Positions 17,621-56,300 of a stretch of DNA of 64,000 bases are shown piece by piece; the first letter of the stretch is position 1, and each line of letters starts with the position of its first letter. Both the position numbers and the translations under genes were made by a program. This stretch comes from Pyropia yezoensis (lineage: Eukaryota; Rhodophyta; Bangiophyceae; Bangiales; Bangiaceae): NCBI GenBank assembly GCA_009829735.1, contig CM020618.1, forward strand, positions 19,205,346 to 19,269,345. The letters are read 5' to 3'. Below the pieces are notes generated by a model. It ran no database searches, was not told where the DNA came from, and saw only the letters and a program-made list of their open reading frames with translations.

Positions 17621-17650
17621 ATCGTCTCCTTCACTGACAAAGGAATCGAG
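17621..17650 (+). repeat. Left terminal inverted repeat of the 10.3-kb transposon
   Basis: It begins ATCGTCTCCTTCACTG. It matches the reverse complement of 27,914-27,943 at about 24 of 30 positions without gaps. Confidence 0.6.
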
Positions 17651-17772
17651 GCATCGATTCGACGGGTTCTGGGCGTCCCTCAGTCGATGCGTTCTGGGGG
17701 GTCCACGATGGGCTCAGATGGGCTTCTCGATGCCCGACGTTCGATGGAGTGGGGTCAATCGAGTAGATCGAA
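17645..17772 (+). repeat. Left subterminal TCGA-dense zone
   Basis: Eight TCGA tetramers occur in about 130 bp, mostly as ATCGAT, TCGATG or ATCGAG. Subterminal clusters of short motifs are transposase-binding sites in CACTA-type elements. That role is inferred here. Confidence 0.6.
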
Positions 17773-18260
17773 GGCAGTCTCGTGGTTTCTGGGCAGTCGC
17801 GTGACTACTTTTTTGGCAGGCAGCCGGAGTGCCGCTGGCGTTGTCGTCCCATCCCCGGTCCGGGCGGGCCCGGACCGGGGGGGGCGGGTGCGCGGCGCGG
17901 GCCGTCGCCGGCGTGCGCTGCGGGATGGATCCTCTCGCCGGGGCGCTACGGGGGGGTTTTACCTCTCGCGCGCAGGAAAGGGAGCACGCGTCCCGCAGGC
18001 AGGCGGCCTGGGCTGGGAGAACACAACCAGAGCTCGGCAGCGGTACCGCCACTCTCACCGCCCTCCACCAGCCGATCCCACCGGCACAGGACGGCACACA
18101 CTCGTCAGCTCGCCGGTGGCGGCGCCATCGGAGTGCAAGAGCAACTCCCCCCCGCCCCGCGTACGCGTGCTCTCTGAAGCCCTTATCGCCCACACAGGAC
18201 CGACCCCACATGGCGGAGGTGCCGCAATGCCGAAGCAGTGGCTGCGTGCTGCCCCGCCGC

Positions 18261-18630
18261 CAAGTGTGCAAGAAGCGTACACCCCCCCCACGCGTCACGC
18301 ACTCCAACAAAGTCGTCCACCACCACTCAGCGGTGGTGTAGCACGACCCCCCACGCCAAGTGTGAAAGAAGCGTACACCCCCCCCACGCGTCACGCACTC
18401 GAACAAAGTCGTCCACCGCCACTCAGCGGTGGCGTAGCACGACCCCCCACGCCAAGTGTGCAAGAAGCGTACACCCCCCCCACGCGTCACGCACTCCAAC
18501 AAAGTCGTCCACCACCACTGAGCGGTGGCGTAGCACGACCCCCCACGCCAAGTGTGAAAGAAGCGTACACCCCCCACGCGTCACGCACTCCAACAAAGTC
18601 GTCCACCACCACTAAGCGGTGGCGTAGCAT
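18261..18630 (+). repeat. Four-unit 96-bp minisatellite with an internal hairpin
   Basis: Units start with CAAGTGTG at 18,261, 18,357, 18,453 and 18,549, an exact 96-bp period for three steps, with a final shorter unit. Each unit carries an inverted repeat (CACCACT, 3-4 bases, then GGTGG) able to fold into a hairpin. Units 1 and 3 have GTGCAAG while units 2 and 4 have GTGAAAG, indicating duplication of a 192-bp pair. It lies between the left end and the 3' end of the minus-strand gene. Confidence 0.9.
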
Positions 18631-18828
18631 GCAGAAAATATATGGCTGCGTGTGCCGTACTGCAGCGCTCGTGCGCCCACGCCCTGATACCGTAATGGCC
18701 AGATCACCGGCGCCCATCGCTCTAGACAGGCGCGAGTCGCCCGCAAGCCGCAAGGCCTGCCATCAACGCGAGCAGGTCCCGCCCACGACCGCCAGACGCC
18801 GCACGACCGAGCCCCCAGAGGGGCATGA

Positions 18829-21378
18829 TCACGGCCGGGCGAGTGCCTCGGCAGCACGAGCGGCTGCGTCCGCCTCGGCGTCGGCGGCTCCCACCGCAGC
18901 ACCACCAGCTGCAGCCCCGGCGTCAGCTTCGGCTAGCGCGCCCATAGCCGCCTCCTCTGCGGCCATCGTGACCTGGTCCGAGTACAGCTTCTCGTACGAG
19001 TCGTCGTTGTCGCCGTTCGGCTGCGTCCGCGCCGCGTCGTCGCCGTCGACGAGCAGTAAGCCATGATGCACCTCCTTGTCATTGTGGAGGATGCTGTCAA
19101 CACGGAACAGCTCCACGCGCCAGCTCGCGTAGCACGACAAGTCGACATGGCGCGGCTTGCGCACGTTGGTGTAGATCAGCGCCTCCAGGTGTTGGCGTAC
19201 AAAGCTGGACATGAGGGCGTACCACCCCGACGTGCAATGCAGGATGTCTTCTTCACCGACCGTGCGTGCCTTCTCCATTCGGCTGCGTGCTCCAAGGTGG
19301 GTGTAGTTCACATCCATGGCCTTCTTGATCCCGCTCCGGCCCGTCAACGACTTGGTGTACGCGTCGTCGTTGTACCACTCCAGCGCCTTGGTCGCATCTA
19401 GCGAGTCAAGCGGCACTTTGATCGTGTTGAAGTACGCCACGACGGCCCGCTTCTTGAGGGCCTCAATCAAGTGCGGCAGCACCTGGCCGAGCGGCACGAA
19501 CGGCTTGACCCGCTCCACCCGGTCCTTTCCCTTCTTGGATCTGAAGCTGCCCACGTTGGGCTTGTCAAACGCCTTGAGCAGCCACTCCTCCGCCTCATCA
19601 GCTTCGTCCTTTCGATGCTCCATGGTCTTGTCAATCATGAGGTTGAAAACCTCGTCCCCATCCAGGTACACGTCGCGGTTGATGACGGCCCAAGCAGTGC
19701 GCTGGGTAAGGTCGTCGTTCATGAGCCGACGGATGGCGCCAATGTCTCTCAGGATGAAGGCAGGGGTGTCGATTGGCACAGCGGGGTTGGCGCCTCGAAT
19801 GGTGCGGCCCGTACGGAAGCCCAAATCAGCCGGGCCCGCGGACGCAGATGCCCCGCTACTACCTCCAGATGGCGGCCCCCCGCCCGGGTGGCTCACCTGC
19901 TGGTTGGCGTTCACGTGCTGCTGCTTCGTCAGCGCCTTCATCTCGGCAAAGCCTTGCTGAACGGTGCTGCGCAAGGCCGTGACCGACCGCGCCAGCGCTT
20001 CGATGGAGGCACCCTGGGTTTGTAGACGCCGCCCCGTGTCCCCCACGTGTCCCTCCAGAGTGCCCAGGCGCTTGGTGAGAGTTCCGACGGACGCGCCAAG
20101 CCCCCGTACGGACGCCGAGTATGCCACCGCATCCTCGTCGACAGCAGAAGCAGGGACGCCATAAGCAGCAGTCAGCGTCATACTGCTGCCAGGGGTATGA
20201 GGGCCACGCCGGCTTTGCGTGGCGGAGGCCGCGGGAGAGCGTGATGCTGGCGTACCAGTGGACCCCACCCCGCCGGTCGGAGGCGGGCCGCGGCGATGAG
20301 TTGAGTTGCCAGCGGATGACCGCGCTCCAGGTGATAGGCTGCCCGCAACGGACGCCTCCGTCGGCGGCGGCGCCAAAGTCTTGCGATTGCGCGGAGCCCG
20401 AGCAGAACGCGGTGCGGTAGCGCGACGCTGGGGCGCGGCAGGCGCCCGTGCACCGGGCACCGGCTGCAGCGCAGCCGTGGCAGGCGCAGGGGGGGGGCGT
20501 ACCCGCTCACCGACCTGCGTGTCGTCGACGTTGAAGAATTGCGTTCCGCCCTCGTCGCCCTGCCCAATTGCCAAGGAGGGAGCGGCGGTGGCGTCAGGCG
20601 CCGCCCCCAAGGTCCGACCTGCGCGCGCCGCGGCTGCCATTCGCCGCTCCTCGTACTCAACAGGTCCCATGCCAGGCGGTGAAAGCGAGGTGCTTGGCGT
20701 CTGGCGCACAGGGGGGGGGGTCACAGGGCGCGGGAATGGGGGTGGTTGCGACATTGCGTCGGGAACTGCCTGCCCACGACCCTCCGGCGCCCCGGGAAGG
20801 TGACGAGTCGTACCAGGGTTGGGGCTGTCGAGCGGTGGCAGCGCCACCTGCGCCTGGTAGGCGGCCACGCGGTCGGCAGCACCTTGCAGGTAGTAGTCAG
20901 GCCGCGTCAAGTAGTCGGACGACACGTCGGCCTGCGTCGCTATAGGAGGGAGTGCAAGTGCGCCCGGGGGCAGCTGGGACGGGGCCACATTGGCGAGCGG
21001 TGCAGCCGTAGGCACACTCTGCGGCGTGGAAGGTCGGTCGGCCAGAGGGAGCGCGCGGAATGAAGCAGGTCCGGCAAGGCGCGGCAGGGATGGAGCAGCG
21101 TCAGCAGGCGGTGCAGGGGAGAGGGCACCCTGCGCCGGAGAGGGTTGGCCCAACGGCGGCACGCCAGTATTGGTGGGCCCAAGGGGCACGCGCCGCATCA
21201 GGGCGCTCAAGGGAGGAAGGCCCAGAGGCCTGGCTCGACTCGCAGCAGCTCGCAGCTCATCCTTGGCGCGGCGATCCGCATCAGTAGGCTGCGGGGAGGG
21301 TCCAACACGAGCGGCCTTGGGAGGGGTGGGCGCACGACCAGGAACAGGTGGGCCACGCTTGGAGCTGCCGGGAGGCAT
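18829..21378 (-). CDS. Transposon-borne coiled-coil protein of unknown function, 849 aa
   Basis: The start ATG is at 21,378 in good context (CACCACCATG) and the stop is at 18,829, with no interruption. Residues 1 to about 400 are Pro/Ala-rich and probably disordered. Residues about 415-490 have a heptad pattern (SVRGLGASVGTLTKRLGTLE, then QGASIEALARSVTALRSTVQ) predicting a coiled coil. Residues about 515-800 form a compact mixed-composition domain with conserved-looking stretches such as DIGAIRRLMNDDLTQRTAWA and HHGLLLVDGDD. The tail is Ala-rich. It is divergent from the transposase inside the same inverted repeats, so an accessory role (DNA binding, multimerisation of the transposition complex) is plausible. 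I recognise no family. Confidence 0.8.
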   Translation of the reverse strand: MPPGSSKRGPPVPGRAPTPPKAARVGPSPQPTDADRRAKDELRAAASRARPLGLPPLSALMRRVPLGPTNTGVPPLGQPSPAQGALSPAPPADAAPSLPRLAGPASFRALPLADRPSTPQSVPTAAPLANVAPSQLPPGALALPPIATQADVSSDYLTRPDYYLQGAADRVAAYQAQVALPPLDSPNPGTTRHLPGAPEGRGQAVPDAMSQPPPFPRPVTPPPVRQTPSTSLSPPGMGPVEYEERRMAAAARAGRTLGAAPDATAAPSLAIGQGDEGGTQFFNVDDTQVGERVRPPPAPATAALQPVPGARAPAAPQRRATAPRSARAPRNRKTLAPPPTEASVAGSLSPGARSSAGNSTHRRGPPPTGGVGSTGTPASRSPAASATQSRRGPHTPGSSMTLTAAYGVPASAVDEDAVAYSASVRGLGASVGTLTKRLGTLEGHVGDTGRRLQTQGASIEALARSVTALRSTVQQGFAEMKALTKQQHVNANQQVSHPGGGPPSGGSSGASASAGPADLGFRTGRTIRGANPAVPIDTPAFILRDIGAIRRLMNDDLTQRTAWAVINRDVYLDGDEVFNLMIDKTMEHRKDEADEAEEWLLKAFDKPNVGSFRSKKGKDRVERVKPFVPLGQVLPHLIEALKKRAVVAYFNTIKVPLDSLDATKALEWYNDDAYTKSLTGRSGIKKAMDVNYTHLGARSRMEKARTVGEEDILHCTSGWYALMSSFVRQHLEALIYTNVRKPRHVDLSCYASWRVELFRVDSILHNDKEVHHGLLLVDGDDAARTQPNGDNDDSYEKLYSDQVTMAAEEAAMGALAEADAGAAAGGAAVGAADAEADAAARAAEALARP

Positions 21379-22887
21379 GGTGGTCGGTGTGATGATGGGT
21401 GAGGAGCAGCGGGGTGGGTGGCAGAGTCAGCGGCGGGGGAAGGGGAAGGGAAGGCCAAAAAGCAGGGTACAAAACGGTCGGCAATGGTAGAGAGGGAGGG
21501 ACACGGACGAGGAGGAGGTGGGGGGACGCGGCGGTACAAAGTGCGGTTCTTATCCTGCAGAGAAGCAGCATGGGGGATGCTCTCGGGCGCCACAAATCGC
21601 GCGGGTAGCGCGCGTGGGCAAGAAAAAACGGCGGGCCAAGCGGCCAGACGCGGTGGACCTCCTCACGCGCGCGAGGGTCGGAGCATGTTGGCACGAAACA
21701 TGAGATATCTCCCGCACGCTGGCGCAAAGGAAGACAGGCGCCGACCCATGACGGGCGCACCCCTCGATCGTGCGCCGCTTGGCGCGACGTGAAGGAGGGG
21801 GTCGGACAAGGGCGCCTGCGCAGCGTGCGGCAGCTCGGCATGGCGCTCGCGGGCGTCCCTCGGACGGCGATCAGAAACGTACCGGACGCGAGCTTGGCAC
21901 TCCCCCAGCACCTCCAAGTGGTGGGTGTCTCGTGATTGCCGGGCAGGCAGACGCCCGCCGCGCCGACGTCGTTACTCGGTTTGAAAAAGGAGCCGATGAG
22001 CTCCCGATTGGGTGCGCCTAGGGTGGCGGTGCCGGGGGTGCGCCGGGCGTGCGCAGGCGAAGGGGCACGTCAAGCGCGCGCCTGCAGACGACATCGTCCG
22101 CGGCTCGTACGAGCCCACCCTGGCGCGAGCACGGTAGAAGTCCAGTTCCAAGTCTGGATTATTGTGGGGCTTGCAGTCTTTCAGTCCGAAGGTCGTCGTG
22201 GTTGACAGATCGAGATTTTAAGACGGTACAGCCATTGGCCCTGTGGTGTCCATCAGCCACAGGGCTGTAAGTAATTTGGCCGGCTCACGTGAGTTCGAAA
22301 CACAGTCGTCGCAGTTCTGATATTAAGTCCAAGTCATGCTGACACGCCGGCACGATGACCTCCACAGCACCTCGTCGTGGACGACGCTCCACCTGCTTGC
22401 ACACTCTACGCGACTGGCCCGCCATGTACGCCTGCCGGCTGCGTGCGTCCCTCTCTGCTCCCGCGGGGGGACTTCCCGCTCCACTGCCGAGTGTTCCCGC
22501 GAGTTTTTCTGGCAACCACGACCGGGCACGTCGGCGACTGCCGTGCAAATTTTTGCGCACACGCGGCGGCCTCTCGGTGTGCTTTCCTGGCACGGCAGCA
22601 GTGCTATCTGTCATAGGACTGTGGGCGTGGGCGCTGTCTATGTGGCGCTCTGGTGGCCGGTGGGTTTTGGTGACGGCTGCTATCCCGCTCGCGTATCCCT
22701 CCCACGTCGGCTGCCACAGGCTTCGTGTCGTCTTTCGCGCCGCGATGGGGGCTGTTTTTCGGGCAGCGCCCGACGAGATGCCAGCTCGCCGCTTGGCCGC
22801 AGCCTGCGGCGTTTCCCACGCTCTTTCGTCTGCGCGTGACGTCGCGCTCATCCCCGCGCCCCAGTCGGTTTGCCATGCGGTACGACG
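21379..22887. promoter_or_regulatory. Divergent intergenic region of the transposon
   Basis: About 1.5 kb separate the two divergent start codons, so it should contain both promoters. It is less GC-rich than the flanking host DNA, with short AT-rich patches near 22,215 and 22,318. No clear TATA element or further gene is seen. Confidence 0.45.
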
Positions 22888-25800
22888 ATGTCGGACGTGC
22901 CGATTTCGTCCTACAAGCTCGCGTGCCTGCTATGTGGGTGCCTGTTGTGTGGCCGGGCTGGATTGAGGACACACATGCTGCGCAAGCACGGCCGGTTGGC
23001 GGCCCACACTGAGCGGCTGAGAAAACCTTTCAATGAATCGCACCTGGCAGCGGGCTCCATCCCTGGCGATGACGAGACGGCGGCTGACCTCTCCCTGTCG
23101 ACCGCCGCCGAGACTGACGTGGCCCGCTCGAGCTGCGTGGGTGACGAAGCTCCCAGCTCAAGCGCTGTGCCGAGCGAGGGCGGCAGCAGGGACGCTGCCG
23201 CAGGTGGCGTCGGCCTGATGCACAACATGGGCGACATTGCCTACGATGCGGCCGTTGGCGACAAGAACTTGTCATCGGATGGGAGCTGTGGGGACCCTGC
23301 AGACGTCGACGCTCGAGTGCACGCGGCCACCGATTCCGAAATGCGCGCGGGCCAGGCGGTGGCGCCCGGTGCACCCCTTCCCAACTGCCAGCCGGGAACA
23401 GGGCAGGACGCCGCGGGTGCCAGCAACTCCGAGGCGGCAGCCGGGACGCGCCATGCAACCATTGCTGCTGAGGTGAGGGCATACTACGAGAGCCTCAACG
23501 ACTGGCCCCAGTCTGTGCCTTTGCTCTTCCTGAAAAAGGCCAGGCGCGCAAGCAGCTTCGATTCTTTTCGTTTGAGAGAGCTGGAGCGGTTTACGCTGGG
23601 GTCGTGCGGTGGGTCTGGGCTGACGCTTGAGGACCAAGCTCGCCTCTACCGCTTGCTGGACATCTGGGATGGAACTATGCCTGGGATGCCCATTGACGAC
23701 GGCCACGAGCAGACCCTCCGCGACGCCTTCTCCACCTGCAATTCCTTCAAGGTCGCAATCCGGGACGACATTGACAACGCGGTTATGGATGCCGGGTGGC
23801 GGAAGGTCGTGCTGGTGGAGGGCGGTATGGAGCTGGTTGCGTACTTCAGGTCGGCACTGGCCGTGGTGCTGCGTTCGTTGCTGGACGCCGACCCGGAGAC
23901 GGTCAAGCTCTGGAGTGGAGGTGAGCAGCCTGCGCCGCCATCCGAGACGCGCGAGACACCACTGGACGGCGATGCTTTCCGCATGAACGAGCAGATGCTC
24001 GTCAACGACCAAGGCCAGCAGTGCTTCGTTTTGGGCCTGCACGTCTTTAGTGACGCGAGCCAGGTGTCCTGGTCTGGAGGTAAGCATGTGTGCTTCTTTA
24101 AGAGCTTCTCGGCTGGGAACCATGGTGTGCAATCCCCTTTGTTGTTCTTTGGTTTGAAGTGACTGACGATTGACTATTTGTTCCCCATGTTATGTCGTGT
24201 AGCCCACAAGTTGTACCCACTGCGCGTGCGAGTTGTGAACATTGCGACCAAGAAGCAGGAGTGGATCACCGTGGCGTACATTCCCATGGTGCGGAAGCAG
24301 AAGGAGGCAGCGGCTGACGAGAGAGGACGTGAGCGGCGCTCAGCAGTGCTGCAGAGAGTTCTGTACCTCGTTTTTCGGTCGACAATCTCCGCCAGCCGGG
24401 ACGGGGTCGGCATTGAGTACCAGGCACGGAAGCTGAAGGCTTTTCCTCGAATATTGCTTTATCTGTGCGACTACCCGGAGGAGAAGGCCGTGCTTGGCCT
24501 GAAGTCGGGCCAGACCGCACTTCCCTGCTCCACCTGCGACGTGAACGTCGCGGAGATGGGGGGACCGCAGGCCCTGACCGCGCAGGAGCGAGACGCGGTG
24601 CAGCTCCTGGACAACCAGCTGGAGGCCTTTCGCCTCCGTGTACAGCACCGCCTTCTTGAGCGACGCAACTACTTGGAGCGCCTGCATAGCCTGCACAGCA
24701 CTTTGCCAGCGCTAGCCGGCATGGCGGGTCTGTCGTCGGCGCCTTTCTTGATGTACCAAGTTGTGGGCTTCGATGCCCTTCACGTACGTGTTTTTGTAGG
24801 CTGCCAGCGACAGGGAGGGCTGCATGTGTGTACAGCGGCGTGTGCCAGTGTAGAGCGCGGTGGTAGCTGTGGCGTCGCCTGAGGTGGTGGTGCGTGATCA
24901 CTAACCATGACGTCCCAAGGGCGCGATTGCTAGCCCTCATGGTTCTCGTAGGCACAGGTGCTGGACGCCGGCGTCACCAGGGAGCTCGTGCAGCGGCTGG
25001 TCCGAGTCTTCCCGTACATTTGCCGTGACAGGTACCCGTTGTGTGGCAGTATGGCGGCAACCTGTCGCATCGCCAACAGGAGGTTTGAGTATATGGGGCG
25101 GCGCAGCCGAGCGAGCGCCCTTCCACCAGGGTACGTGCTGTGTGTCTGCGGCTCTCTTTTGAGTGAAGCAGACGAGTCTCCTACACCACTTGAGTCCTCC
25201 ACGGTACGGCACTGACGCATCTACCGCTCCTGTCTGGTTGCTGTGACCGCTTCCTGTTTCTCGTGGCATTTTCTATAGTTATCTCATTGCTGCCACCGAG
25301 ACCCAGGCGACATTCACAGGAAAGCAGCAGCGTGCCGGTGTGTACATTATTCCTTTTGCTGTCGCCGGTCTGTTCGGTCTCGGTGGCGAGCGTCCCCCCC
25401 GTCGCAAGGCAACACCGGCAGCACGTGGAAGAGGTGGGAGACGGCGCGAGACTTGTCGTCGGCGTGCACCCGCTCGCAGCCGTGCTGGAAGCCCTGAGCC
25501 TCCCATTGACCAAGCTCCAACTGGCAACCCCGGCGCCCCAGACGAGGACGCGCCGTTCTTGCTGCAGCCGGACGACGAGGACGTCGAGCTTCCCGAGAGC
25601 TTCAAGTTCGACTGGGATGCGTACCGCGCCGCATTTGGCGAAACGCCCATGCAAGACGCCGTCACCGCCATGTTCTCCGAGTACGCCGTCCTGTACGCGC
25701 GCCTCGCAGGCTGGGTGACGTCCACCAAACCGGCACCCATGACCGTCAGCGAGGGCAAGGACGTATGCAAGCAGGCGGAGGAGTTTGTGTTGAACTACAT

Positions 25801-26794
25801 GACTCCCATCCTGGGCCCCCTCCACACGAGCAAGGTGCACAAACTCCTATGCCATGTCTTGGACTCCATCAAGATGCACGGGAACTTGCAGAATGGGAAC
25901 ACGAGCACCAACGAGTCAGAGCACAAGGTGGACAAGAAGTTCTACAGGCGTACCAACAAGAGCATTGCGACGTTCACGGCCCAGATTGTGCGGCAGTCTC
26001 AAGGCACGCGCGAGGTGCTCAAGCGCCTGGAAGCAGAAGATGCAGAGTTGCTGCGATCGAAGCCGGCCACCGTCGGTGCTTCCGCTGCTACGCTAGCTGC
26101 TGCAGCCGGCGGTGCCGCGGGTGCACCGCCACCCCGTCGTGCTCGGCAACCTCCCGTGCGCGGCGCACAGCTGCCCACCTTGATGCGCGCCCGTTTGCGC
26201 ATGACTGTGGACAGCTTGTCGCGGCGGCCGGGCTTGGGGAGCATCGGGAGGGTTCTCAACCGCCCAGCCAAGTTTAAGCTCGGCGTCACGCAGAGCAAGG
26301 CGTTCGTCGCCGAGTTGGACTGCGGCGCGTCCCTGAAGCAGATTGTGCGCGCGTCGTCCTCTTTCCGAGGCACGCCTTGGTATGACGCGGTGGTGTACAC
26401 GCTGGAAGACGACTCGAGCACTACCCAGGGCAGCGACGACGACAAGAGCGACACGTCCGTGCAGTACATCGGCGAGGTCAGGGCCATCATCCGTGCGAAG
26501 GGCGAGGACTGGGCCGTCATCTGCAACATGGCGCCAGAGGAGGCTGCCCCCCCCTGCCCGCTTTCTGCACGAGAGTGCACTCCCGTCAAGTGGGCGGTAC
26601 CGGCCGACGGAGAAGATTGGTCCATCACGGCCGTGCCGTTCCGGCGCATTGCGCGCGTCGTGCACATCGTACCCGACTTTGAGGACCTCCTCAAGCGCCG
26701 CGGGTTGCTCGGTCTTCCACCCGCTGCAGGAGGACCTCTGGCCGACTTGCGTGCCATGAGGTACTTTGTTAATGCATTTTATCCGTGGGGGTAG
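22888..26794 (+). CDS. Plavaka/CMC-like DDE transposase, four exons
   Basis: Exons are 22,888-24,079, 24,203-24,783, 24,958-25,130 and 25,279-26,794. All introns are GT-AG (123, 174 and 148 bp) and phases join cleanly to give about 1,153 residues. The N-terminus has a short zinc finger (C-x2-C, seven residues, H-x4-H) at about residues 15-35. The core shows VFSDASQVSW (first Asp, about residue 387), a YP motif and IATKK...AYIP after the first intron, then PRILLYLCDYPEEKA (second Asp, about residue 486) with a nearby CSTC pair. The putative Glu lies in NGNTSTNESEHK (about residue 857). This order matches fungal Plavaka and related CACTA-like transposases. The C-terminal 300 residues are lineage-specific. 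Transposition of this element is the inferred role. Confidence 0.8.
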
Positions 26795-27143
26795 CAAGCC
26801 CTGTTTCCATCTCCCTTCGTGCGTCCTTGCTTTGAGAGTGTGCCACAGGCTTTGTCATGGAACATGTATGTGGACATACCAAGCTCTCTGCCCCCGCTCT
26901 GGCTACTAATCCGTCAACAGCACGTCAGCATAAAATACCCGCGGGCTGCGCTCCACGACCATCGCCTGGACACAAGCGCGAGCAAGCACAATAACTCGAA
27001 CAGCATGTGCCTTGGACTGAGCGCATACTAAGACGGCATGCACCAGAGGAACAACAAGACCATGGAGCGGTCGGTCGCAGCAACACAGGGAACGTGATCA
27101 GCAGATCCCACCGGGCGCTGGCTGGGTGGTATAGTGCGAGAAC

Positions 27144-27362
27144 CTATTGGCGTGTGGGCTGCAACGCAAACAGGTCGCAACGGCGACCCGCCGTGAGGAC
27201 CAGAGCGGGCATGTGTTGGCGTGCGGGCGAAGCAATCAACGCAGAGTCCTGGCTACCGGTCGTGAGAATCAGTGCGGGGAGCTATTGCCGTGGAGATATA
27301 GCAAGCACATCCCACCAGCACCGGCCGACGAGACCTGCGCACGCACCTGCTGGCGTGCGGGC
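27144..27362 (+). repeat. Degenerate tandem repeat of about 65-70 bp near the right end
   Basis: Variants of TGTTGGCGTGCGGGC start at 27,144, 27,214, 27,282 and 27,347, with similar flanking words (GAGAAC, GAGAATC, GAGACC) upstream. The units are too diverged to align fully by eye. They mirror the repeat-rich zone at the other end of the element. Confidence 0.4.
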
Positions 27363-27778
27363 TGGACGGCCACCCCATCCAGCTAGAACATGACGGCGCG
27401 GGCCAGTGCCGGCGGCTGGTCTAGCGCCGGAAGGAACACCGGCAGCATCCGCAGGCCATCGCTACCAGTCACCTCCGCCGGTCGAACAGGCAGGACGATA
27501 ACCACGGGCACCAGCACGGCGCGGGCACGCCGACAAAGAGCAGCGCAGGGGACAACGAGTCCTCACACAGGCCGGTTGCCGGGGCCTGCAGCAGTGCCCT
27601 AGTTGGGTGACGACCACGAAGAGCGACCCCCCGCACTGACCCAGAGACGGCAGCCGCGCGACAGCTGAGCGGCGTCTGGCCTGAGCTGTAAAGTACACGC
27701 TTGCAGTCAGAGAGGCTTCACCCCTGTCTTTGCCATTGGTCAGATGCGATCACGTGACAGACCTCTCGTGATTCTAAG

Positions 27779-27925
27779 CACATCGAGACTCCATCGGTCA
27801 GTCGGAGTGCTGCGTTCGGCAGCAACCCGCAGTGCATCGATTCGAGCTGTCGATGTGCTCGCATCTCACAATCGATTCGGTGGGCGATGCCTCATCGAAG
27901 GCCTCGATGGGCTCTCGATTGGATT
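27779..27925 (+). repeat. Right subterminal TCGA-dense zone
   Basis: Eight TCGA tetramers occur in about 145 bp, as ATCGAG, ATCGATTCGA, GTCGAT and similar. Density and spacing match the left end. Confidence 0.6.
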
Positions 27926-27943
27926 GCCTGTGAATGAGACGAT
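27914..27943 (-). repeat. Right terminal inverted repeat of the 10.3-kb transposon
   Basis: Read on the minus strand from 27,943 it begins ATCGTCTCATTCACAG, mirroring the left end. Confidence 0.6.
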
Positions 27944-29013: not shown

Positions 29014-32000
29014 TCACTCGGCAAAGCTGGACACAGACACCCACGACACGGTCGCCACGTCCCGCGACGCGACCAGCCGCAGCGTGATGCTCGTCGACGC
29101 CGTCACGAGGGCGTCCAGCTCCAGCTGGCTCCACCGCCCGCCGAGGTCACCCACCAGGTCCACGTCCTTGGCCAGCACCACCTCCTTGCGGCCGTCCACC
29201 ACCAGCGAGACGCTAAACACCCGCACCCCGGCGGCGGTGTGGACCAGCTCCTGCAGGCCCACAACTACCGCGTGGTGGCCGGGGACCGCTACTGGCAGCG
29301 CAAACGCCATGTCCGCCCCCGTCCGGGCGGATGCCCACAGCTCCCCGGCCACAGACGGGTGGGCCTCGTGCGTGTCAGAGGAGGCGGCGCCGGCCAGCAA
29401 GTAGGCCGTGTCATTACGTCCGCAGCTAAAGACGGTGCGCGTGACAGGGAGCGGCGCAGCCGCAGCGGGGGCAAGCTCCATCCACACAGGCGCCGCCCAC
29501 TGCGCGCTCGGCACCGCCGAGGCATGGTTGCCCGACGTCGACGCGATGCGGATCTCATTGACAAAGGGTGGGCCGGTCACATCTGCGGCAGCCGCCGCCA
29601 CAACCACCGTGATCCACCGTGCCGCGTAGAGCCGCGAGGCAGACAGGGTCAGCGCCTCGGTGCTAACAACGGCATAGACGTCGAGGTCAGACGCGAGCAG
29701 AGACAGCGGCTGCACGTCGCTTCCCACGGAAACATTCAGCCGCCGGCCGGCGCCACCGCCATACACCTCACGGAAGAGGAGCTGCACGTCGTAAAACGCG
29801 GCGTGAGGGACCGGTACCGTGTAGACGAGCGGGAACGCCACGGCCGCCGACTGCCGCTGCGTCAGCATTGGGTCGACCGCCACCCCGGCCGAGACGCCCG
29901 GCGGCGACCGCAATGACGAGCCCTGGGTGACCACCGCCGCGCCCTCCTCCCGAGACGGCGCGAGCGGCGTGCCGCTGCGGCGAATGACGCGCGGTGCATC
30001 ACCCGTCTGGGGCCCGTCAGGCGTAACCGCGACGCTCGGCCACGAGTAGCCCGTGTCCGACGGCCCCCCACAGTCGATGGACAGAACCACAGGGGCACCC
30101 GCCGCCACTGGTAGAGGCGCGGGCGTCTTGACCGCCACGGTTGCAGGGCCGGGCCCCGTCGCCAAAGCGGGTACCAACGTTGGGGGCGGCGTGACCGTCG
30201 GCGCGGGCGCCACACTGGGGGTGGCAGCCGGCGTCTGCGCCGGCATAGGAGCCGGCATCGGGTCCCACGACCGGGACCGCGAGTCACTGCGGGCTTGCGC
30301 GACAGGCGCAGGCGAGGGAGTCGCCACCGCCTCGGGCGCCGGGGCAGGCGTCTGTGTCGGCTGCTCAGACGCCACCTGCGTGGGGGCAGGCGTCGGAGCA
30401 GGAGCAGGCCCAGGCGTTGGCTGTGGGGCAGGCACCGGGGTCGGTTCCGAGGTAGGCGCAGGCGACGGTTCTGGAGCAGTAGTGGAAATGGACTCCGGGG
30501 AAGGCGCTGGCGTAGGCTCAGTGGCGGAAGTGGGCGTTGGCTCAGGTGCAGGCGCAGGCGTCGGTTCCGGCGAAGGCGTCGGTTCCGATGTAGGCGTGAA
30601 GGTTGGCTCGGGGGTAGGCACGAGAGAAGGCTCGGGGGCGGGCGTTGATGTTGGCTGAGGGGGAGGCGCAGGCGTCGATTCCGGCGCAGGCGTCGATTCC
30701 GGCGCCGGCGTCGGTTCCAGCGCCGGCGTCGGTTCCGGCGCAAGCGTCGGTTCCGGCGAGGGCGTGGGAGTTGGGTCAGGGATAGGTGAGGGAGTCGGCG
30801 CGACGGTGGCGACCGGCGAGGGTGTCGACCGCCGGGAGGCAGTCGCGCGAGGCGGTGACGATGCCGTCGCAGATGGTGTCGTCAATGGAGCCAGAGCCAC
30901 CAACCCTTCCTCACCCTTCTCAACGCTGACCGGGCGGACGTCCAGGCGGCTTAGCATCGGGGAGTTGATAACCCGACCGATGATGACTGACAACCGTCCA
31001 CCTTCTGCGACGGTTACGGTCGACGACAGGGACAAAATGGCGTCCTTCCCAACCGCCGCATAGACGTCTACAGCCGACCAGTCCACAACGCCTGTGTTGC
31101 CCAACACGGCTGCGTCCTTCCCAGCGGGAACGGTGGACACAGAAAAGACGCGCTTGCCAGGAGCAGAGAAGTAGAGCTCGGCAAAGTAAAGAGTCACGCG
31201 GTAGGTGCCAGGGTGGCTGACCGCAAAGTCGTAGGCGAGGTTCCCACGGAGCGAAAAGCGCAGGGTTCCCAGGGCGTCATAGGCAGTTGGCAGCGCAGGG
31301 TAGATGCGCGTCGCTGGCAAGTCCCGAACAAAGGCCGAGTCCCGAACAACGCCGTGGGCAACGTCGCCGCCGCCCCCACAGTCCACCTTGAGCGAGTACT
31401 GCGGCGCTGCGGCCGTCGACGCCACCGCCTCGGTGCTGTGGATCTCCACAAACGCCGCCATGGGGTTGTTGACAATTCGGCCAAGCAGCAGAGACAGCTT
31501 GCGCTCCTCGCCGACTGTTACCAAAGCGGTCAGGCGTAGCGCCCGGCCGCGGCCAACCGACGCAAACACATCCACCGACGACCAGTCAGAGAGGTCGCCT
31601 CCCACAGAGTGGGCGGCTGGCAACGTGGCCACCGAGAAGACCCGCCGACCGACGGAGGAAAAGGCCAGCTCCACCGCCCAAAACGTGATGTTGTACGTCC
31701 CCGACGCGGGAAGCGAGAACGAATACACCAGATCCCCCGTCGTTGCGTATCGCAGAGAAGCCCCTGGGTCGGCTGCCACAACCGGATGCGTGTACGTCCG
31801 CGATGCACCAATGTTGCGCACAAAGGCAGCGTCGGTGACGAGGCCGTCGTGGGCATTACCGGAGCCACCACAATCGAGGCGCAGCTCGCCCGCCGACTTG
31901 GAAGTCGTCGCCCGCCGAGGACCCGGCGTCGGTGGCGGCGCGGCACCTCCAACCTTGCGGACTTCAATCAGTGAAGCCTCTGGGTTCTCCACCACCCGCC

Positions 32001-32670
32001 CCAAGAGCAGCGACAGTCGGCGATCAGTGTCGCTCACCTCCACAGTAGTCATCATGACAAGCACGCGCTCCGCACCCACCGTCGCGTAGATATCCACCGC
32101 CGACCAGTCGGTCACGTCGCCCGGCACCGGCACGCCGGAAGGCTCGGTTGCGACAGAAAAGATGCGCCGCCCTACCCCCCGCAGTGGTGGCGCCACTTCT
32201 TCAAAGTAGACGGTCAGGTTGTAGACGCCGCCAGAGGGAAGGTCAAAGTCGTAGATGAGGTCCCCTGTCGGCGCGTACCGCACCACGTTCATTACGTCCT
32301 TCTCTTTGGCGTCGGGCCGTTTGTAGGTGCGCGACGCAGCAAGGTCCCGCACGTAGGGTGCGTCGCTGACCGTCTTGAGGGCAGGGTCCTTGTCGGGGCC
32401 CGCACAGTCCAGGCGCAGGAGGTAGTCCTGCGACGACAGGTCCTTCGCAGAGTTTACCAGCGCCGCCAGCGCAACGGCCGAGTCAACACCCCCGGCGCCA
32501 CCGCCCCTGGCGCGACGTACCACCGTGTTCAAGACTGGCACAGCGTTCTCGCTACTCATCAGGAGCCCATCGTGAGTAGTAACCACCGCCGATGCACAGG
32601 TGGACGCCAGCGCTGCGGCCACCACTGCCAGGTACAAGAGTTTGGTCATCCTGACGCGGCTGGATATCAT
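29014..32670 (-). CDS. Secreted protein with five malectin-like domains and a Pro-rich stalk
   Basis: The first ATG is 32,670; a second at 32,649 directly precedes the signal peptide core MTKLLYLAVVAAALASTCAS. Malectin-like domains lie at about residues 80-238, 260-410 and 423-583. They are recognisable by openings such as LRLDCGG, the GTYNITFW / GVYNLTVYFEE strands and GKRVFSV, and by closings such as RLSLLLGRIVNNP. Residues about 613-850 are a Pro/Thr/Glu repeat (TPAPEPTP type), likely an extended O-glycosylated stalk. A fourth, more diverged domain (about 857-1037) and a fifth (about 1073-1218) follow. Malectin domains bind carbohydrate, so a cell-wall or extracellular role is likely. A pyrimidine tract ending in CAG just before the ATG could be a 5'UTR splice acceptor. 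The next gene upstream is the GMC oxidoreductase on the same strand. Confidence 0.85.
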   Translation of the reverse strand: MISSRVRMTKLLYLAVVAAALASTCASAVVTTHDGLLMSSENAVPVLNTVVRRARGGGAGGVDSAVALAALVNSAKDLSSQDYLLRLDCAGPDKDPALKTVSDAPYVRDLAASRTYKRPDAKEKDVMNVVRYAPTGDLIYDFDLPSGGVYNLTVYFEEVAPPLRGVGRRIFSVATEPSGVPVPGDVTDWSAVDIYATVGAERVLVMMTTVEVSDTDRRLSLLLGRVVENPEASLIEVRKVGGAAPPPTPGPRRATTSKSAGELRLDCGGSGNAHDGLVTDAAFVRNIGASRTYTHPVVAADPGASLRYATTGDLVYSFSLPASGTYNITFWAVELAFSSVGRRVFSVATLPAAHSVGGDLSDWSSVDVFASVGRGRALRLTALVTVGEERKLSLLLGRIVNNPMAAFVEIHSTEAVASTAAAPQYSLKVDCGGGGDVAHGVVRDSAFVRDLPATRIYPALPTAYDALGTLRFSLRGNLAYDFAVSHPGTYRVTLYFAELYFSAPGKRVFSVSTVPAGKDAAVLGNTGVVDWSAVDVYAAVGKDAILSLSSTVTVAEGGRLSVIIGRVINSPMLSRLDVRPVSVEKGEEGLVALAPLTTPSATASSPPRATASRRSTPSPVATVAPTPSPIPDPTPTPSPEPTLAPEPTPALEPTPAPESTPAPESTPAPPPQPTSTPAPEPSLVPTPEPTFTPTSEPTPSPEPTPAPAPEPTPTSATEPTPAPSPESISTTAPEPSPAPTSEPTPVPAPQPTPGPAPAPTPAPTQVASEQPTQTPAPAPEAVATPSPAPVAQARSDSRSRSWDPMPAPMPAQTPAATPSVAPAPTVTPPPTLVPALATGPGPATVAVKTPAPLPVAAGAPVVLSIDCGGPSDTGYSWPSVAVTPDGPQTGDAPRVIRRSGTPLAPSREEGAAVVTQGSSLRSPPGVSAGVAVDPMLTQRQSAAVAFPLVYTVPVPHAAFYDVQLLFREVYGGGAGRRLNVSVGSDVQPLSLLASDLDVYAVVSTEALTLSASRLYAARWITVVVAAAAADVTGPPFVNEIRIASTSGNHASAVPSAQWAAPVWMELAPAAAAPLPVTRTVFSCGRNDTAYLLAGAASSDTHEAHPSVAGELWASARTGADMAFALPVAVPGHHAVVVGLQELVHTAAGVRVFSVSLVVDGRKEVVLAKDVDLVGDLGGRWSQLELDALVTASTSITLRLVASRDVATVSWVSVSSFAE

Positions 32671-34279
32671 GCGACTGCAACAGGGGAGGGGAGCCGCAGG
32701 GTGGTGGCGACAGCACGACACCCACCACAGAGAGGAAGAAAGTCCGGCTCACAGGCGGAAACCAGCCGTCACAGAGACGGCACCGACCGTGCTGCGCGGC
32801 AGCAATGGGAAGCTGCCACGGAAGACGGGCCGCTCCTCTGTCGCACCAACTCCGACGACCTCATATACCGCCTTCCACGGAGAAAGGGAGTGCCCTGCCC
32901 GTTCCTTGAACATCGCCCAGGTCCGCCGGCGCCACAAAAGGTGCCAGTCGACAGCTGGTCAGAGGCCCCCACGCTCACGCCCCTCTCCACCACGCAAGCA
33001 GACAAAAACCGCGCGGACAGCCATTGGCCAGCATCACACCAGCAGCGGTGGACGCCCCCGCCCCCGCCCCCAAATCCCAGCAGCCCCCCAACAGTCGCCA
33101 CCAGGGGAGCCAGGTGCACACAGCCTCTCCCTCGCCAACGTCATCGGTAGCCGCGGCAGCCCAAATTACGGCCGCCCTACCACACCGCAGATACTGAAGC
33201 GGGGACATCATCCTCCCTCGCCCCCCCGCTCCCTGCTCCTTCACAACACTCCGGGAAAGCAGCGGTGTGCCGTGACGTGCTCTGCCCATCTCACCTCATC
33301 CCAGCCAACAGACCGCCCCATAGGGCACCGAGCGCCGCACGCCTGTCTACAATCAGCGTCAGAGGGGAACAAGAAAAATATGGCAGCAGCGCCAGGCAAA
33401 AGCACCCAGTGGGTGAGTGGCCACTCACCCCAACCGCCAACGTGCGCTGGTAAGGCCAACGGATGGGGCAGAGGCCCGCAGCGGCGAGGAAGGGCGGTCG
33501 TAACGGCTGCTCGTCCCCAATTCCACCGCCACCGCCGGTCGACCGTGGTGAAGGCGCACCCACACGCAACGCCACGAGGATCAGCCGTGTAGCGCCGGCG
33601 TGACGGCGTGACGTCATCAACGATCACCGTTACATGCCGGGCCGGGCGTGCATGCGCCCAAAGTTGGCCGGCCCTACATAGCTACATGGGAGCTGCAGAC
33701 CAGAGCTGGACAATGGCCGGCCCCGCGGGGGCTGCGAAGACCAGCGCTGGCCAGCGAATAAGAGGCCCTTGTCTGCGGCAACCAAGGACGTCCTTCCAAT
33801 TTGCCCACATCCACACGAGATGACCAACTGACCAACTATTCGGGAATGCGGTACTGGTCGAATACATATCGAGGGGAAGGACGGTCAATCGTGGTGATGT
33901 CGTGAAATTATATACACAATTTCTTTCACGCTCGCTGACGAGAAATAGACAATGAAATTCGTAGCGCTCAGATCGCATTCGGGACTGGTGTGCCTCGCTC
34001 CCAGGATCAAGTTGGAGCGAAAACTGATGCGCATCGGCGGCCGCATCGAACCCCCGGTCTGAGCACGCCCCGAGCTCGAAAATTCCGATGCGGGGCCTCA
34101 GCGGAAAAAGTCCCTAGCTAGCGGACCATTCGAACAGGCTCCCGCCCGCGGGGCAAGCCTTTTGTCCTTCTCGCTCTAGCTATCGGCCTGTGCGCCATAA
34201 GGAGGGCAGCTATGGCGGTCTCCCCTTCCGTCTATGCTGTGGGCATGCCCTCGCCACACCATCATGCAGACCCCCGCGC
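32671..34279. other. Upstream region of the malectin gene, no supported gene
   Basis: About 1.6 kb separate the malectin start from the end of the GMC gene. From 33,820 to 34,130 the DNA is unusually AT-rich for this window and contains a small perfect inverted repeat (GAAATT, eight bases, AATTTC at 33,902-33,921) and several TCGA words. It may be a relic of a small transposon. No gene is called. Confidence 0.45.
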
Positions 34280-47323: not shown

Positions 47324-48047
47324 GGTTATATAGCATGCAATATAAGTGGGAGGATCGCTGTCGGCTTTTTCACCAACTCGATCGCCGATTTTCTCGATCG
47401 TTCACCGGCATACAGTAACGCAATCCAGAGGAATTGAATTCTTGCGAACATAAGGTGGCACGGGACGGGGGGGTCCTTTGGGGTGCGCCGTCACCGAGGA
47501 CCCCACCGTCGTCGACCCCACCGTCTTAACCCCACCGCTGTCACCGCCACCACCATCGTCCCGAATCATTCTTGCCCCGGCGTGTCGACGGCACGGGGCC
47601 TGATTGCGGTTCGGTGTTTCACGTGCTTTCCAGGGTGGCTTGATTGCGGTGTGGTATCCCTCGTGATTCTCACGGGGATTCTGCTTCTCGGCGAGTACTT
47701 GTGTGTCGATGGGCACTCGTGAGGCTCCAGGTCCCCGACGTCGTTCTCTTTTCTTTTTTGCTGGGTGTCTTTTTGCAATGGATCTTGATCTGTTTTTGTT
47801 CTTTTCCGAGCTCGTCATTTTGTGTGCGTGTGCTAGTCTGTGTGCCGCTGCCGTTGCCTTCCCCAGAGATCCACACCTCTCCCAGGACAGCCCAGCATGG
47901 CGCCGTGTGAGCGATGTCGCTTCCGCGGCTGCGGCAGCAGCAGCAGAGGAGGTCTGTCCCGTTGCGTCACGTGACACCATACATATCATCCAGATAGCCG
48001 CTCGAGCACCAACAGCAGCCTCCAAGACGGCTTTGGTCGGGGATAAT

Positions 48048-49790
48048 ATGGAGCTTTCGGACGTTCCCTGGGCGATGTCTACATCTGAGGACGCTGCGAA
48101 GGCAGCGGAGCAGGGCACTGGTGGTCAGTCGGCAGACGAGCGGGGTGCGCGTGGCGTTGAGCGACACGGGCGGGGAGGCCGCCGAGGCCGCGGCCTAGGC
48201 GGCGGCCACCGTGGGGCAGGGCTGCGGCCGGGCGGGGCAAGGCGTGGGCGGGATATTGAGCGCCCTCGGTCAGACAATGGTCGCAAAACCCGGACATCTG
48301 TGCCTTTGGGAGACAAGATCGCTCTTATTGATATCAAGGACGCGGGCCACACGTGGCCCGAAGCCCTGGCCATGTTTCAACTCGACATCAGCTGCTCGGG
48401 TGCTCGCGCTATCTACAAGCGGCAGGACGAGTACAAGCGCCGGGCGGCCGCGTCGGAGGACCTGTCGTCGTGCCGCGCACGCCGGTCGTATTTTGAGCAG
48501 GTGTCTCAAGGCCTGTGGGATTGGTACCAGACCTTACGGCGGTTGGGAGCTCGGCACGTGAGCGTGTCTGGTGGACTCCTTGAGGCCCGTGCAAGGCGCA
48601 TCGGGACGGAGCTAGGTGTGACAGGCTTCAAAGCGTCGCGTCATTTTATCCAGAACTGGGCCAGACGCTACAAACTGCGCAACATAGCATTGTGGGGTCA
48701 AGGTGCGTCGGCAGACATCGCGGGGTCGACGGGGAGAGTATCCGAGATCCGAAAGGAACTCGAGGTCTACCCTCCCGATCGTATCTACAACATGGACGAA
48801 ACTGGGCTGTTCTACCGGTGCACCCCTAACCGGTCCTACGTACAAGCAGGCCAACGGCGGCAGGCAAGAGGTACCAAAGCAATGAAGGCTAAGGACCGCG
48901 TCACCCTCGTTTGGGCCTACAACGCCACGGATAGCCACAAGATCCCGGTCGCATTTATTGGCAAGGCCAAGCAGCCGCGGTGCTTCAAGCCCCCCCGTCA
49001 GGCGTGCCCTGTGCCGTACTTTTCTCAAAATAATGCGTGGATGGATGGGGTCATCTTCAAGTCCTGGTTTGAGACAGTTTTCCTGCGATCTGTACGCGCG
49101 CGCGTTACTCTTCCTGTGGCCTTAGTACCAGGCAATTGCGGGGCGCATGAGGAGCTTGCGAGCGAGCAGGTCAAGTTCATCGCTCTTCCACCAAACTGTA
49201 CGTCCATCTACCAGCCGCTGGACATGGGTATCATTGCCTGTCTTAAAAGACGGTACAAGTGGAGGCTGTTGGACCTGGTTGTCGGCGCTTTTGACTCTAT
49301 GGGGGGCACAGGAGCCTCTCAAGATCCGGTGGTTGGTGCAAATGCGGGGGCAGCGAATGCAGCCGTGGTTCCGGTGGCCGGCGAGGTGTCGCGCGCGGCT
49401 ACGGGTCGAGTGGCGAGCGTGCCGGTTGCCCCAGCGAGCGCGGGAGCGGACCACGTGGCGCCGCCCGCCCCGGCGAGTGTGGAGCGCGCGGCAGAAGAAC
49501 CGTTGGTGCTCGAGGCGGGCCCGGCGAGAGCGATGGTAGCGGACGCGACCGGCGGTGGCGGCGTGACCGCGGCAGCGGGCACTGGATCAACGACGCAAGG
49601 ACGTGGGTCGGGCCCGGCTCACGAAAGTAACGACGCTTCCGGGTCACTCCCTGCTGCGGCTGGGCCGGGAACTTGGGGCTGGGCGTCGGACTCGCTCACT
49701 GCATCAAATTCCCGGCCGGCCGCCCGTCCGCGCTCACGCGCTTGTGCACAGGCAGTGATTCGCGGTGTCAGGGATGGCGCCACTGTGTGA
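48048..49790 (+). CDS. Pogo/Tigger-like transposase with altered catalytic triad, 3' truncated
   Basis: The start is ATG 48,048 (or 48,075); the frame is open upstream to 47,703 but reads like leader sequence. Domains: an N-terminal helix-turn-helix (DKIALIDIKDAGHTWPEALA), a CENP-B type second helix-turn-helix ending KASRHFIQNWARRYKL, then the DDE core. The first Asp is in RIYNMDETGLFYR, followed by RVTLVWAYNAT and KQPRCFK. The second position reads ALVPGNCGAHEE, with Gly where this family has Asp before Asn. The third Asp is in PPNCTSIYQPLDMGII. A long Ala/Val/Gly-rich extension follows to the stop. The expected C-terminal helices are missing here and appear at about 60.0-60.4 kb beyond the inserted retroelement. 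With Gly at the metal-binding site it should be catalytically dead. Confidence 0.8.
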   Translation: MELSDVPWAMSTSEDAAKAAEQGTGGQSADERGARGVERHGRGGRRGRGLGGGHRGAGLRPGGARRGRDIERPRSDNGRKTRTSVPLGDKIALIDIKDAGHTWPEALAMFQLDISCSGARAIYKRQDEYKRRAAASEDLSSCRARRSYFEQVSQGLWDWYQTLRRLGARHVSVSGGLLEARARRIGTELGVTGFKASRHFIQNWARRYKLRNIALWGQGASADIAGSTGRVSEIRKELEVYPPDRIYNMDETGLFYRCTPNRSYVQAGQRRQARGTKAMKAKDRVTLVWAYNATDSHKIPVAFIGKAKQPRCFKPPRQACPVPYFSQNNAWMDGVIFKSWFETVFLRSVRARVTLPVALVPGNCGAHEELASEQVKFIALPPNCTSIYQPLDMGIIACLKRRYKWRLLDLVVGAFDSMGGTGASQDPVVGANAGAANAAVVPVAGEVSRAATGRVASVPVAPASAGADHVAPPAPASVERAAEEPLVLEAGPARAMVADATGGGGVTAAAGTGSTTQGRGSGPAHESNDASGSLPAAAGPGTWGWASDSLTASNSRPAARPRSRACAQAVIRGVRDGATV

Positions 49791-53392: not shown

Positions 53393-56300
53393 TCACGTTG
53401 AAGGAGGGCAAGTGGGGTCGATATCATTCCGGGCGCAGTATGCCCGGACCTTCTCAGCGGGAAGGTCCTCCACGTATTCCCACGTATCATCCTTGGCCTT
53501 ATAGCCGAACCAACGCACCCTCAACATGGGGCGGTTAGTGTCCTCATCCCACCCGTGGTCGATGAACTTATCGAACACGTACTCCTGCGGGCCCTGTTTG
53601 GCCGCAGGTAGCGAGGGCAGGCGCCACGCTTGCAGCGCACGCGCCCAAGCTGGGTCGCCTGCAGGAGGTGGTGCAACGTTTACCACGTCCTGTCCGTTTA
53701 CTGTGCGGACCCCATCGTCACTTTCGATGGTGAACCGCCGTCCATCTGTACGAAGGACCTGGTATGGCCCCTTCGTCTGGAACACCAACTTACCCCTAGT
53801 TGGGGTGTGTGAGTGAGCCAGTACGCAGTCACCCTGCTCGGGGACGTGCTTGGCGTTACGCACCTTTTTGTCAAAAGTACGCTTGTAGCGCTTTTGCGCT
53901 TCGTCCATCTCAGCCCTGACTTTAGGGATGAGTTTTTCGAGCCTAGCAGCGAACTCCGCCTTACTCTCAGTGGGAGTAGGTGCACTGCCATCGGCCTCCC
54001 TAATTGGGAGCGGCCGCCGCACGGCAATAGACCGCACGCGACAAGGGGTCACAAAAGCGAGGGGTACTTCCCCGGTAGATGAGTGAACCTGCGAATTGTA
54101 GGCAGTCGTAAGAATAAAAATGTAATGGTCCCACGTTTTCACGTGCTCACTCACATAGTGGCGCAGCTGCCGAACATTAGTTTTGTTGAAGCGCTCCACC
54201 TGCCCATTAGTTTGTGGGTGGTAGGGGGTGGCATAGTTTGCCTGAACCCCCAACATATCCAGCACTCCCTGAAACAGTACGGACGCAAATTGCGGTCCAT
54301 TGTCCGATAGTGTACTGTCCGGGATGCCATACGCGGCAACCCAGTGATCAAGGAAGGCTGACACGACCGACATGGCCGTGATCTCTGCCAGAGGGATCGC
54401 TCGCGTAAGTTTCGTGAAGCAATCGCAGATGACCTGGAGGTACTGGTTGCCCTCCTCGGTAACTGGCAGGGGCCCAAGGATGTCCATTGCCAACGCGGCA
54501 AAGGGCTCCTTGGCCGGGAACAGTAACATAGCCGTAGTGGGCCGCCGTTCCATCAGACGGTTCTGCGCACAACTTGTGCAGGCAGCCACCCAACTGTAGA
54601 TGTCCACCACCATGGACGGCCAGTAGTACCTGGTCCTCAGGGTCTGGTACAGTTTACTAGACCCCAGGTGTCCACCTGTGGGAGCGTTATGCTCCCTCTC
54701 AAGAATACTGCTCTTGAGGGATGCGGGGACGACAAGTTGTTCGGTCCCCTGAATTACCCCCCTCCTCAAGAGGAGCCCATCGTCTCCGATGAAGAACCGC
54801 GTCTCCGCCACCGTATCCAGCGTATCCCTCTGCGACTTGCAGGAGGAGTCCTCGGCCTGGGCCTTCACCACCTCGTCCAGGGACAGGGGCAAGTACTTCT
54901 TGTTCCCTGGCGCCTCAGGGTCCAACGCCTGACCCGAGCGCGTGACTACCCCCACGATGGGGATGTCATCGTCGACTGAGTAAGTGTCCAGCCCCTCGGT
55001 AGGTACCCGAGAAAGGCCGGAGGCAAGGGCATGTTGCCTGCCAGGTCGGTACTCAGTATCAAAGTTGAAGGGTGCCAGTCGCACCCTCCACCTGTTGAGG
55101 CGGGTGTTCGTGCAATCCGTCTTGAAGATGAACTGCAACGCGCGGTGGTCACAGCGGATGAGGAACTTCTCACCCTCTAGGTAGTGACGAAGTGACGTCA
55201 CCGCCCATACCACTGCGAGTCCTTCCAACGCGGTGACTCCATAGTTCTTCCCAGCCGAGTTCAGCCCCTTGCTGAAGTATCCTACCGGCAAGTATTCCTT
55301 GTCCGGCTGCTGCTGAAGAAACACACAACCAAGTTGGTCGTAGCTAGCATCCGCGTCTAAGATGTAGTGGCCTCTCAACCTGGGAATAGCCAAGATAGGG
55401 GGGTTCAGCAGTAGGTCACGAAGAATCTCAAAGGATTCCTGCTCCACCCGACATGGGGGAGGCAGGTTCTTCGGTAGCGTCGAGCTAACTAGCCCATTCA
55501 GCGGCTTCGCCACCTTGGCGAAGCCCTTGGTGAAACGTCGGTACACGTTACACATCCCGAGGAAGCTCCTCATCTGGGTCTGGGTCCGGGGGTACTGAGC
55601 CTTACGGATGGCCCTCAAGTTCTTCTGGTTGACACTGAGGCGCCCCGGACGGACAACATGTCCCAAGTATTCCACCTCCTGAGTGAAGAGGCGGCACTTG
55701 CTCGCCTTCAGTGACACACCGGCGTCAGCAAGTAGCTTGAACACCTGGCCAAGATGGCCATTCTGCTCCTCCGGACTTCGGGAGAGCACAATGATATCGT
55801 CTAAGTACTTAAGACAGATCTGCCACCGTACTCCGGCCAGATTCATGTCCATGGCGCGCTGGAAAGTTGCCGGCGCGTTGCACAGTCCAAACGGTAGTCG
55901 TTTGCACTGGTAGGTACCACAGTGACAGGTAAAGGTAGTTTTATGCCTGTCTTCCGGGGCAATGGGAATTTTCCAATACCCCGCGTTACAGTCTAGGGTA
56001 GAGAACACGTTTGCCTCCCCCAGAGAGTCCAGACAGTCGTCCATCCTGGGTAGGAAATAACTGTGCTTCACCGTGCTCTCGTTGAGCTTACGGTAGTCGA
56101 TACAAAACCGTGGGGTCCCATCAACTTTGGGGACAATGACCACCGGACTCGCCCACTCGGCGTTGCTGGCCTCAATCACATCGAGAGCCTCCATGCGAGC
56201 GACTTGCTCCTTGAAAAGGGCCCTTGAACGGGGCCCTCCCCTGTACGGTTGTTGGTGTATAGGGGGTGCACCGGGTTTCAACTCGATCCGGTGTTGGGTG

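Follow-up and report, generated by a model that had tools for sequence, protein, structure and literature searches.

A probable two-gene Plavaka-type DNA transposon in the red alga Pyropia yezoensis

Positions 17621-27943 of the analysed stretch of Pyropia yezoensis DNA (hereafter the window, 64,000 bp; C1:19205346-19269345 of the 107.5-Mb assembly) appear to form an autonomous Plavaka-type transposon of the cut-and-paste kind that moved very recently, a reading of the sequence to which a probability of roughly 0.88 was assigned. The element is 10,323 bp long. A second copy with identical ends is found at C2:22652151-22662281, and neither copy has an interrupted frame in either gene, in agreement with the original prediction of an intact transposon with these bounds. 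This is an apparently working two-gene Plavaka element of a farmed red seaweed, and because its genes are intact and its ends are known, it offers a practical test case for movement in this branch of the CACTA/Transib/RAG1 clade. In nori, such an element might give rise to new mutations and might serve as a genetic tool.

Ends and copies of the element

The left terminal inverted repeat ATCGTCTCCTTCACTGACAA (17621-17640, plus strand) and the right terminal inverted repeat ATCGTCTCATTCACAGGCAA (27924-27943, minus strand) are alike at 17 of 20 bases. ATCGTCTCCTTCAC at 17621-17634 (+) and ATCGTCTCATTCAC at 27930-27943 (-) lie in inverted orientation, and exact matches to ATCGTCTCNTTCAC occur twice in the window, both at the proposed ends. 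The element has the form ATCGTC..GACGAT, followed inwards by TCGA-dense subterminal zones at 17646-17771 (left) and 27783-27918 (right) with 8 TCGA sites each. The first 200 bp of either end contain 8 TCGA sites, whereas the window as a whole averages 0.575 per 200 bp, and these two ends were the top-scoring 200-bp intervals of the window for TCGA. The inverted ends and the matching subterminal zones had both been predicted.

The genome was searched with the 20-base end pattern, allowing two mismatches, and 16 sites were obtained. The only exact 20-base sites outside the window were the two ends of the second copy (copy E, 10,131 bp), which lies on another chromosome. By BLAST, the window element and copy E were 99.96% identical over 9,501 bp and 99.03% identical over 821 bp. 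Homology began at 17620 and ended at 27944, one shared base past each end; this single extra base common to both flanks is due to chance. Global alignment gave one substitution, at 24087 in intron 1 of the transposase gene, two 1-bp indels and a length difference of 192 bp, equal to two units of a minisatellite (18258-18629, 96-bp unit, 3.9 copies in the window element) that are missing from copy E. Both copies keep open frames of 1155 aa for the transposase and 849 aa for ORF2. The prediction was to be refuted if no other genomic copy ended at these positions or if homology between copies ran through the proposed ends; instead, the similarity to copy E breaks off at the proposed bases, at the left and right repeats alike.

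A more distant relative, copy A (C1:36478797-36489860, 11,064 bp), is about 72% identical to the window element in its longest DNA pieces. Its right-end homology to the window stops at 27943, and its own two ends both carry the ATCGTCTC motif. ORF2 is open in copy A, and its transposase match contains one TGA.

Transposase and classification

Predicted splicing joined four exons with GT-AG borders on the plus strand into a single 1155-aa frame: 22888-24079 (C2H2-like finger and D389), 24203-24783 (D487, C506 and C509), 24952-25130, and 25279-26794 with the stop codon (H838, H843 and E863). The motif set is D-D-E with C(2)C (C506/C509) and H(4)H (H838/H843); the H(4)H part of the zinc motif and E863 both fall in the last exon, beyond the two Asp strands. 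Conservation was assessed in an alignment anchored on the window transposase and comprising at most 15 loci, some of which nearly duplicate one another. D389, C506 and C509 were identical in 13 of 13 covering loci (of 15 aligned), H838, H843 and E863 in 10 of 10 (of 15 aligned), and D487 in the alignment rows shown. The cleanly spliced DDE transposase of the original prediction is thus upheld at the level of predicted exons and conserved D389, D487 and E863. The zinc finger that had also been claimed stands in part: a C2H2-like finger at the N-terminus (C13-x2-C16-x12-H29-x4-H34) can be made out in the window protein and several of the aligned relatives. L010, however, has Tyr in place of its first Cys, the L018/L019/L023 type shows a gap at this place, and the finger is absent from the Pfam report on the transposase. 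At L017:6358-6501, a relative is open in frame where the window transposase has intron 1, as if the intron could be translated.

The transposase matched the Pfam family PF18759 (Plavaka) at 41.9 bits, against a cut-off of 26.3, over profile positions 101-272 of 325. A profile search against Plavaka, CACTA and KDZ models had been proposed, and in Pfam PF18759 was the sole family reported up to an E value of 10; no CACTA-type profile (Transposase_21) and no KDZ profile was returned. The Plavaka/CACTA affinity previously read from the motif order around the two Asp strands is thereby resolved in favour of Plavaka. From the profile and catalytic pattern of the predicted transposase, the element is classified as a variant of Plavaka with its own ends and a second gene, and not as CACTA or KDZ. 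For KDZ (Zisupton) elements, 8-bp duplications were sought at 14 pairs of ends and found at none, in addition to the lack of a KDZ profile on the transposase. A TET/JBP gene was found neither by Pfam in the two proteins nor in a genome search, whose controls also gave no match.

Forty ends of related elements were tabulated, partly by means of ATCGTC-containing patterns and partly by DNA similarity, and 39 of them start with ATCG, usually in the form ATCGTC, a constancy that is in part built in by the search patterns. The exception is M2_L (CATGCGTC); an end-like sequence, L076 (AGCGTC), was not entered. In the portion of PMC12730594 covering these families, the D-D-E pattern with C(2)C and H(3-4)H is common to Plavaka, EnSpm, Transib and RAG1, fungal PlavakaA is given ends of TGT..ACA with a 2-bp duplication, and fungal PlavakaB is given CATCA..TGATG with a 2-3 bp duplication. 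The present element resembles the Plavaka of that account in its transposase profile and short inverted ends, and differs from both PlavakaA and PlavakaB in its ATCGTC..GACGAT ends, its AT or absent duplication and its ORF2 (PMC12730594). Since 39 of 40 ends show ATCG, and neither TGT..ACA nor CATCA..TGATG, it falls outside both subgroups named there.

Plavaka has already been recorded outside fungi, as EnSpm-Plavaka in the green alga Auxenochlorella and as Plavaka-flanked giant repeats in Amoebidium (PMC12633428, PMC11244446, in part). The relevant sections of these accounts contain neither the present ends, nor ORF2, nor a red-algal element; in the Amoebidium repeats they describe tyrosine recombinases, and the database matches of these recombinases include red algae (PMC12633428, PMC11244446). 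Within the parts of the Plavaka literature examined, no family with these ends and no ORF2-like partner was described, in line with the earlier statement that no described family has this exact layout.

ORF2 and related elements in the genome

ORF2 (18829-21378, minus strand) is one ATG frame of 849 aa, divergent from the transposase. It had been described as an uninterrupted divergent partner, and it is open in copy E too. The protein has a low-complexity N-terminal half and a conserved helical C-terminal region, with a coiled coil predicted at low confidence at about residues 415-493. Pfam searches of ORF2 and four homologues gave noise-level matches only and no family, TnpA-like families included. 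The four homologues, at other loci, are all open and align lengthwise; identity to the window ORF2 is 50% for two of them and 27% for the other two. dN/dS for ORF2 was about 0.33 for the window against copy A and 0.32 against copy B, where dS is near saturation (1.26 and 1.39, respectively); copy A against copy B gave 0.37, and 0.27 for the C-terminal part.

A genome search with the ORF2 C-terminal region matched 89 places. For the transposase, 86 of 111 matches were clustered into 56 loci, the other 25 being short exon-3 pieces that were left out. An ORF2 match was present upstream within 20 kb at 52 of these 56 related loci, on the opposite strand in all 52, and these loci were served by 50 different ORF2 matches; the gap between the genes was 3.0-5.1 kb at 44 loci and 12-15 kb at 8. 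The layout is therefore commoner in the genome than the window alone shows. The ORF2 family, which Pfam does not recognise and whose divergent position is conserved over tens of loci, is a clear target for biochemistry.

PF18759 served as an independent profile. Of its 114 genome matches, 56 had an ORF2 match no further than 20 kb away, on the opposite strand in every case and upstream in 54. Conversely, 54 of the 89 ORF2 matches had a PF18759 match at this distance or closer; random placement, repeated in 300 trials, gave 3.75 on average and 10 at most. The other 58 PF18759 matches have no ORF2 match within 20 kb (for example C1:5281496-5282212), and the best-scoring match of the genome is among them. 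Thirty-five ORF2 matches have no PF18759 within 20 kb (for example C2:18636127 and C1:34991814). Some of these adjoin a transposase match, and the remaining lone ones may be remnants or neighbours of an unrecognised transposase.

Two-ended elements were sought with the pattern ATCGTC plus two TCGA, which gave 115 matches in the genome compared with 13 for a reversed-pattern control. The matches used reach to C3 10.87 Mb, and 16 of the 114 Plavaka loci were left out of the pairing. Among the matches listed, 64 distinct ends were recognised, some of them chance occurrences; the pattern misses the two-ended elements A, P2 and P4. At least 20 two-ended elements were paired among the matches listed, the window element and copy E included; 17 of these 20 measured 10.1-28.8 kb and 3, with neither gene, 1.8-2.7 kb. 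Again among the matches listed, all 17 large elements contain ORF2 and 16 contain a PF18759 match; the remaining one, C3:5079434-5090555, has ORF2 aboard and a transposase match at C3:5082692. In the element at C2:19447288-19469648, two transposase matches accompany a single ORF2. Of the further large two-ended elements, copy A and P4 (C3:12346068-12368619) hold both genes, and P2 (C1:2626574-2653851) has a PF18759 match and no ORF2 match, so that 19 of 20 large elements, from a set of at least 20 found, have an ORF2 match. P2 and the 58 distant Plavaka matches suggest that ORF2 has possibly been lost from some elements, has diverged too far for the search, or is dispensable for some. For ten ends, of which eight are distinct because the window element and copy E repeat each other, the outermost 200 bp contained 8-11 TCGA sites, against 0-2 in the flank.

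Short elements of 1.8-2.7 kb with the same ends and neither gene are present at C1:31675834-31678518, C2:8819903-8822584, C2:22857389-22859238, C1:19890668-19892520 and C2:25707014-25708854, and are probably non-autonomous derivatives moved by the lineage. At C2:25706961-25708854 (L067, L074), a short element begins 53 bp into a further end of this type, a possible nested insertion. In C3:12346068-12368619, C1:3252940-3273542 and C2:30224475-30244039, an inner part of 8.8-10.1 kb is repeated head-to-tail. Each of these has two transposase matches, the first two also have two ORF2 matches, and end-like sequences are repeated in the last two. They may be real tandem transposons or assembly effects.

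Target site, proposed mechanism and alternative readings

Alignment of the copies, which had been suggested as a means of fixing both the termini and the target duplication, gave exact termini; for the duplication, direct repeats of 1, 2, 3, 4, 5 and 8 bp outside ATCG were no more frequent in 14 two-ended elements than after re-pairing of the flanks. At the ATCG border, a 3-bp duplication was present in 0 of 14 pairs, a 2-bp duplication in 3 of 14 (1.8 expected) and an 8-bp duplication in 0 of 14. The duplication is therefore AT or none. The base outside AT varies among copies with identical first 20 end bases (left ends of P3, P4 and P5), which indicates that A is the last base of the element. 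At 26 of 39 ends, AT has a C before it (P = 2e-5, bases counted by eye). A single joined-flank search for an empty site returned the element's own flanks only. On balance we favour AT as the target, often as C-AT-G, becoming a 2-bp duplication, with no duplication as the alternative; a 2-bp duplication of the Plavaka type fits here only if AT itself is the duplication.

By analogy with its clade, the transposase would cut at the ATCG borders. ORF2, probably a helical coiled-coil protein, would coat the TCGA repeats and join the two ends. In En/Spm, TnpA binds the subterminal repeats, and this analogy, together with the anatomy of the element, gives such a role for ORF2 a chance that we put a little short of even. 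The structure predictions were low-confidence models that speak neither for nor against gathering of the TCGA zones; with the lack of a recognised domain, they leave DNA binding by ORF2 a conjecture. An extended reading, in which the elements form a red-algal Plavaka subgroup whose ORF2 family binds the ends by reading the CpG-containing TCGA, so that movement could sense DNA methylation, with insertion at C-AT-G and duplication of AT, is speculative and rather unlikely; its target component draws on the variable outer base and the frequent C before AT.

ORF2 might instead be an accessory protein with another task, such as choosing targets, transport or counteracting silencing by the host, and TCGA might be read by the transposase on its own, for instance through its C2H2-like finger. 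This is a serious possibility, though we hold it less than even: the transposase has its own N-terminal finger, ORF2 has no recognised DNA-binding domain and a weak model, and P2 combines both ends and a Plavaka match with no ORF2 match. Against this, the TCGA end class tracks ORF2, since among the matches listed an inward end was found within 15 kb at 20 of 50 PF18759 loci with ORF2 and at 3 of 48 without (Fisher P = 9e-5), an association that may reflect shared descent and not function. Two of the three exceptions (C1:37163983 and C1:18045384) are relatives detected in the transposase search, with the nearest ORF2 match 27 and 60 kb off, and the third (C1:2648010) is P2.

En/Spm has two genes, TnpD and TnpA, inverted ends and repeat-rich subterminal zones. 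The present element shares this two-gene plan, the subterminal repeats and the DDE clade with its D, D, E, C(2)C and H(4)H, and differs in having ATCGTC ends and no CACTA (or CAC..GTG) terminus, no 3-bp duplication at the border in the 14 pairs, PF18759 as its sole Pfam family and an ORF2 lacking a TnpA-like Pfam match, so that a CACTA/EnSpm element in the strict sense is very unlikely. Capture of ORF2 by chance as host cargo, to which its lack of a recognised domain might point, is still harder to sustain: the partner keeps one orientation at 52 of 56 loci, where the relatives' transposase pieces are about 31-66% identical to the window protein over longer stretches, and a partner under selection in one arrangement speaks against it. 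Near-identical copies number only two, as segmental duplication or an assembly artefact without transposition might give, yet their flanks are unrelated, homology breaks exactly at the inverted ends and the same end motifs recur in diverged relatives, which leaves that explanation almost no room beside recent movement of a Plavaka-type element.

Three other features were observed in the window. A 1244-aa frame at 29017-32748 (-), 1.1 kb from the right end of the element, contains a proline-rich part and four stretches of malectin domain. At 47709-49790 (+) lies a transposase frame of the DDE_1 family that includes a Tc5-type DNA-binding domain. The frame at 53393-57085 (-) encodes a polyprotein of reverse transcriptase, RNase H and integrase whose end resembles a chromodomain.
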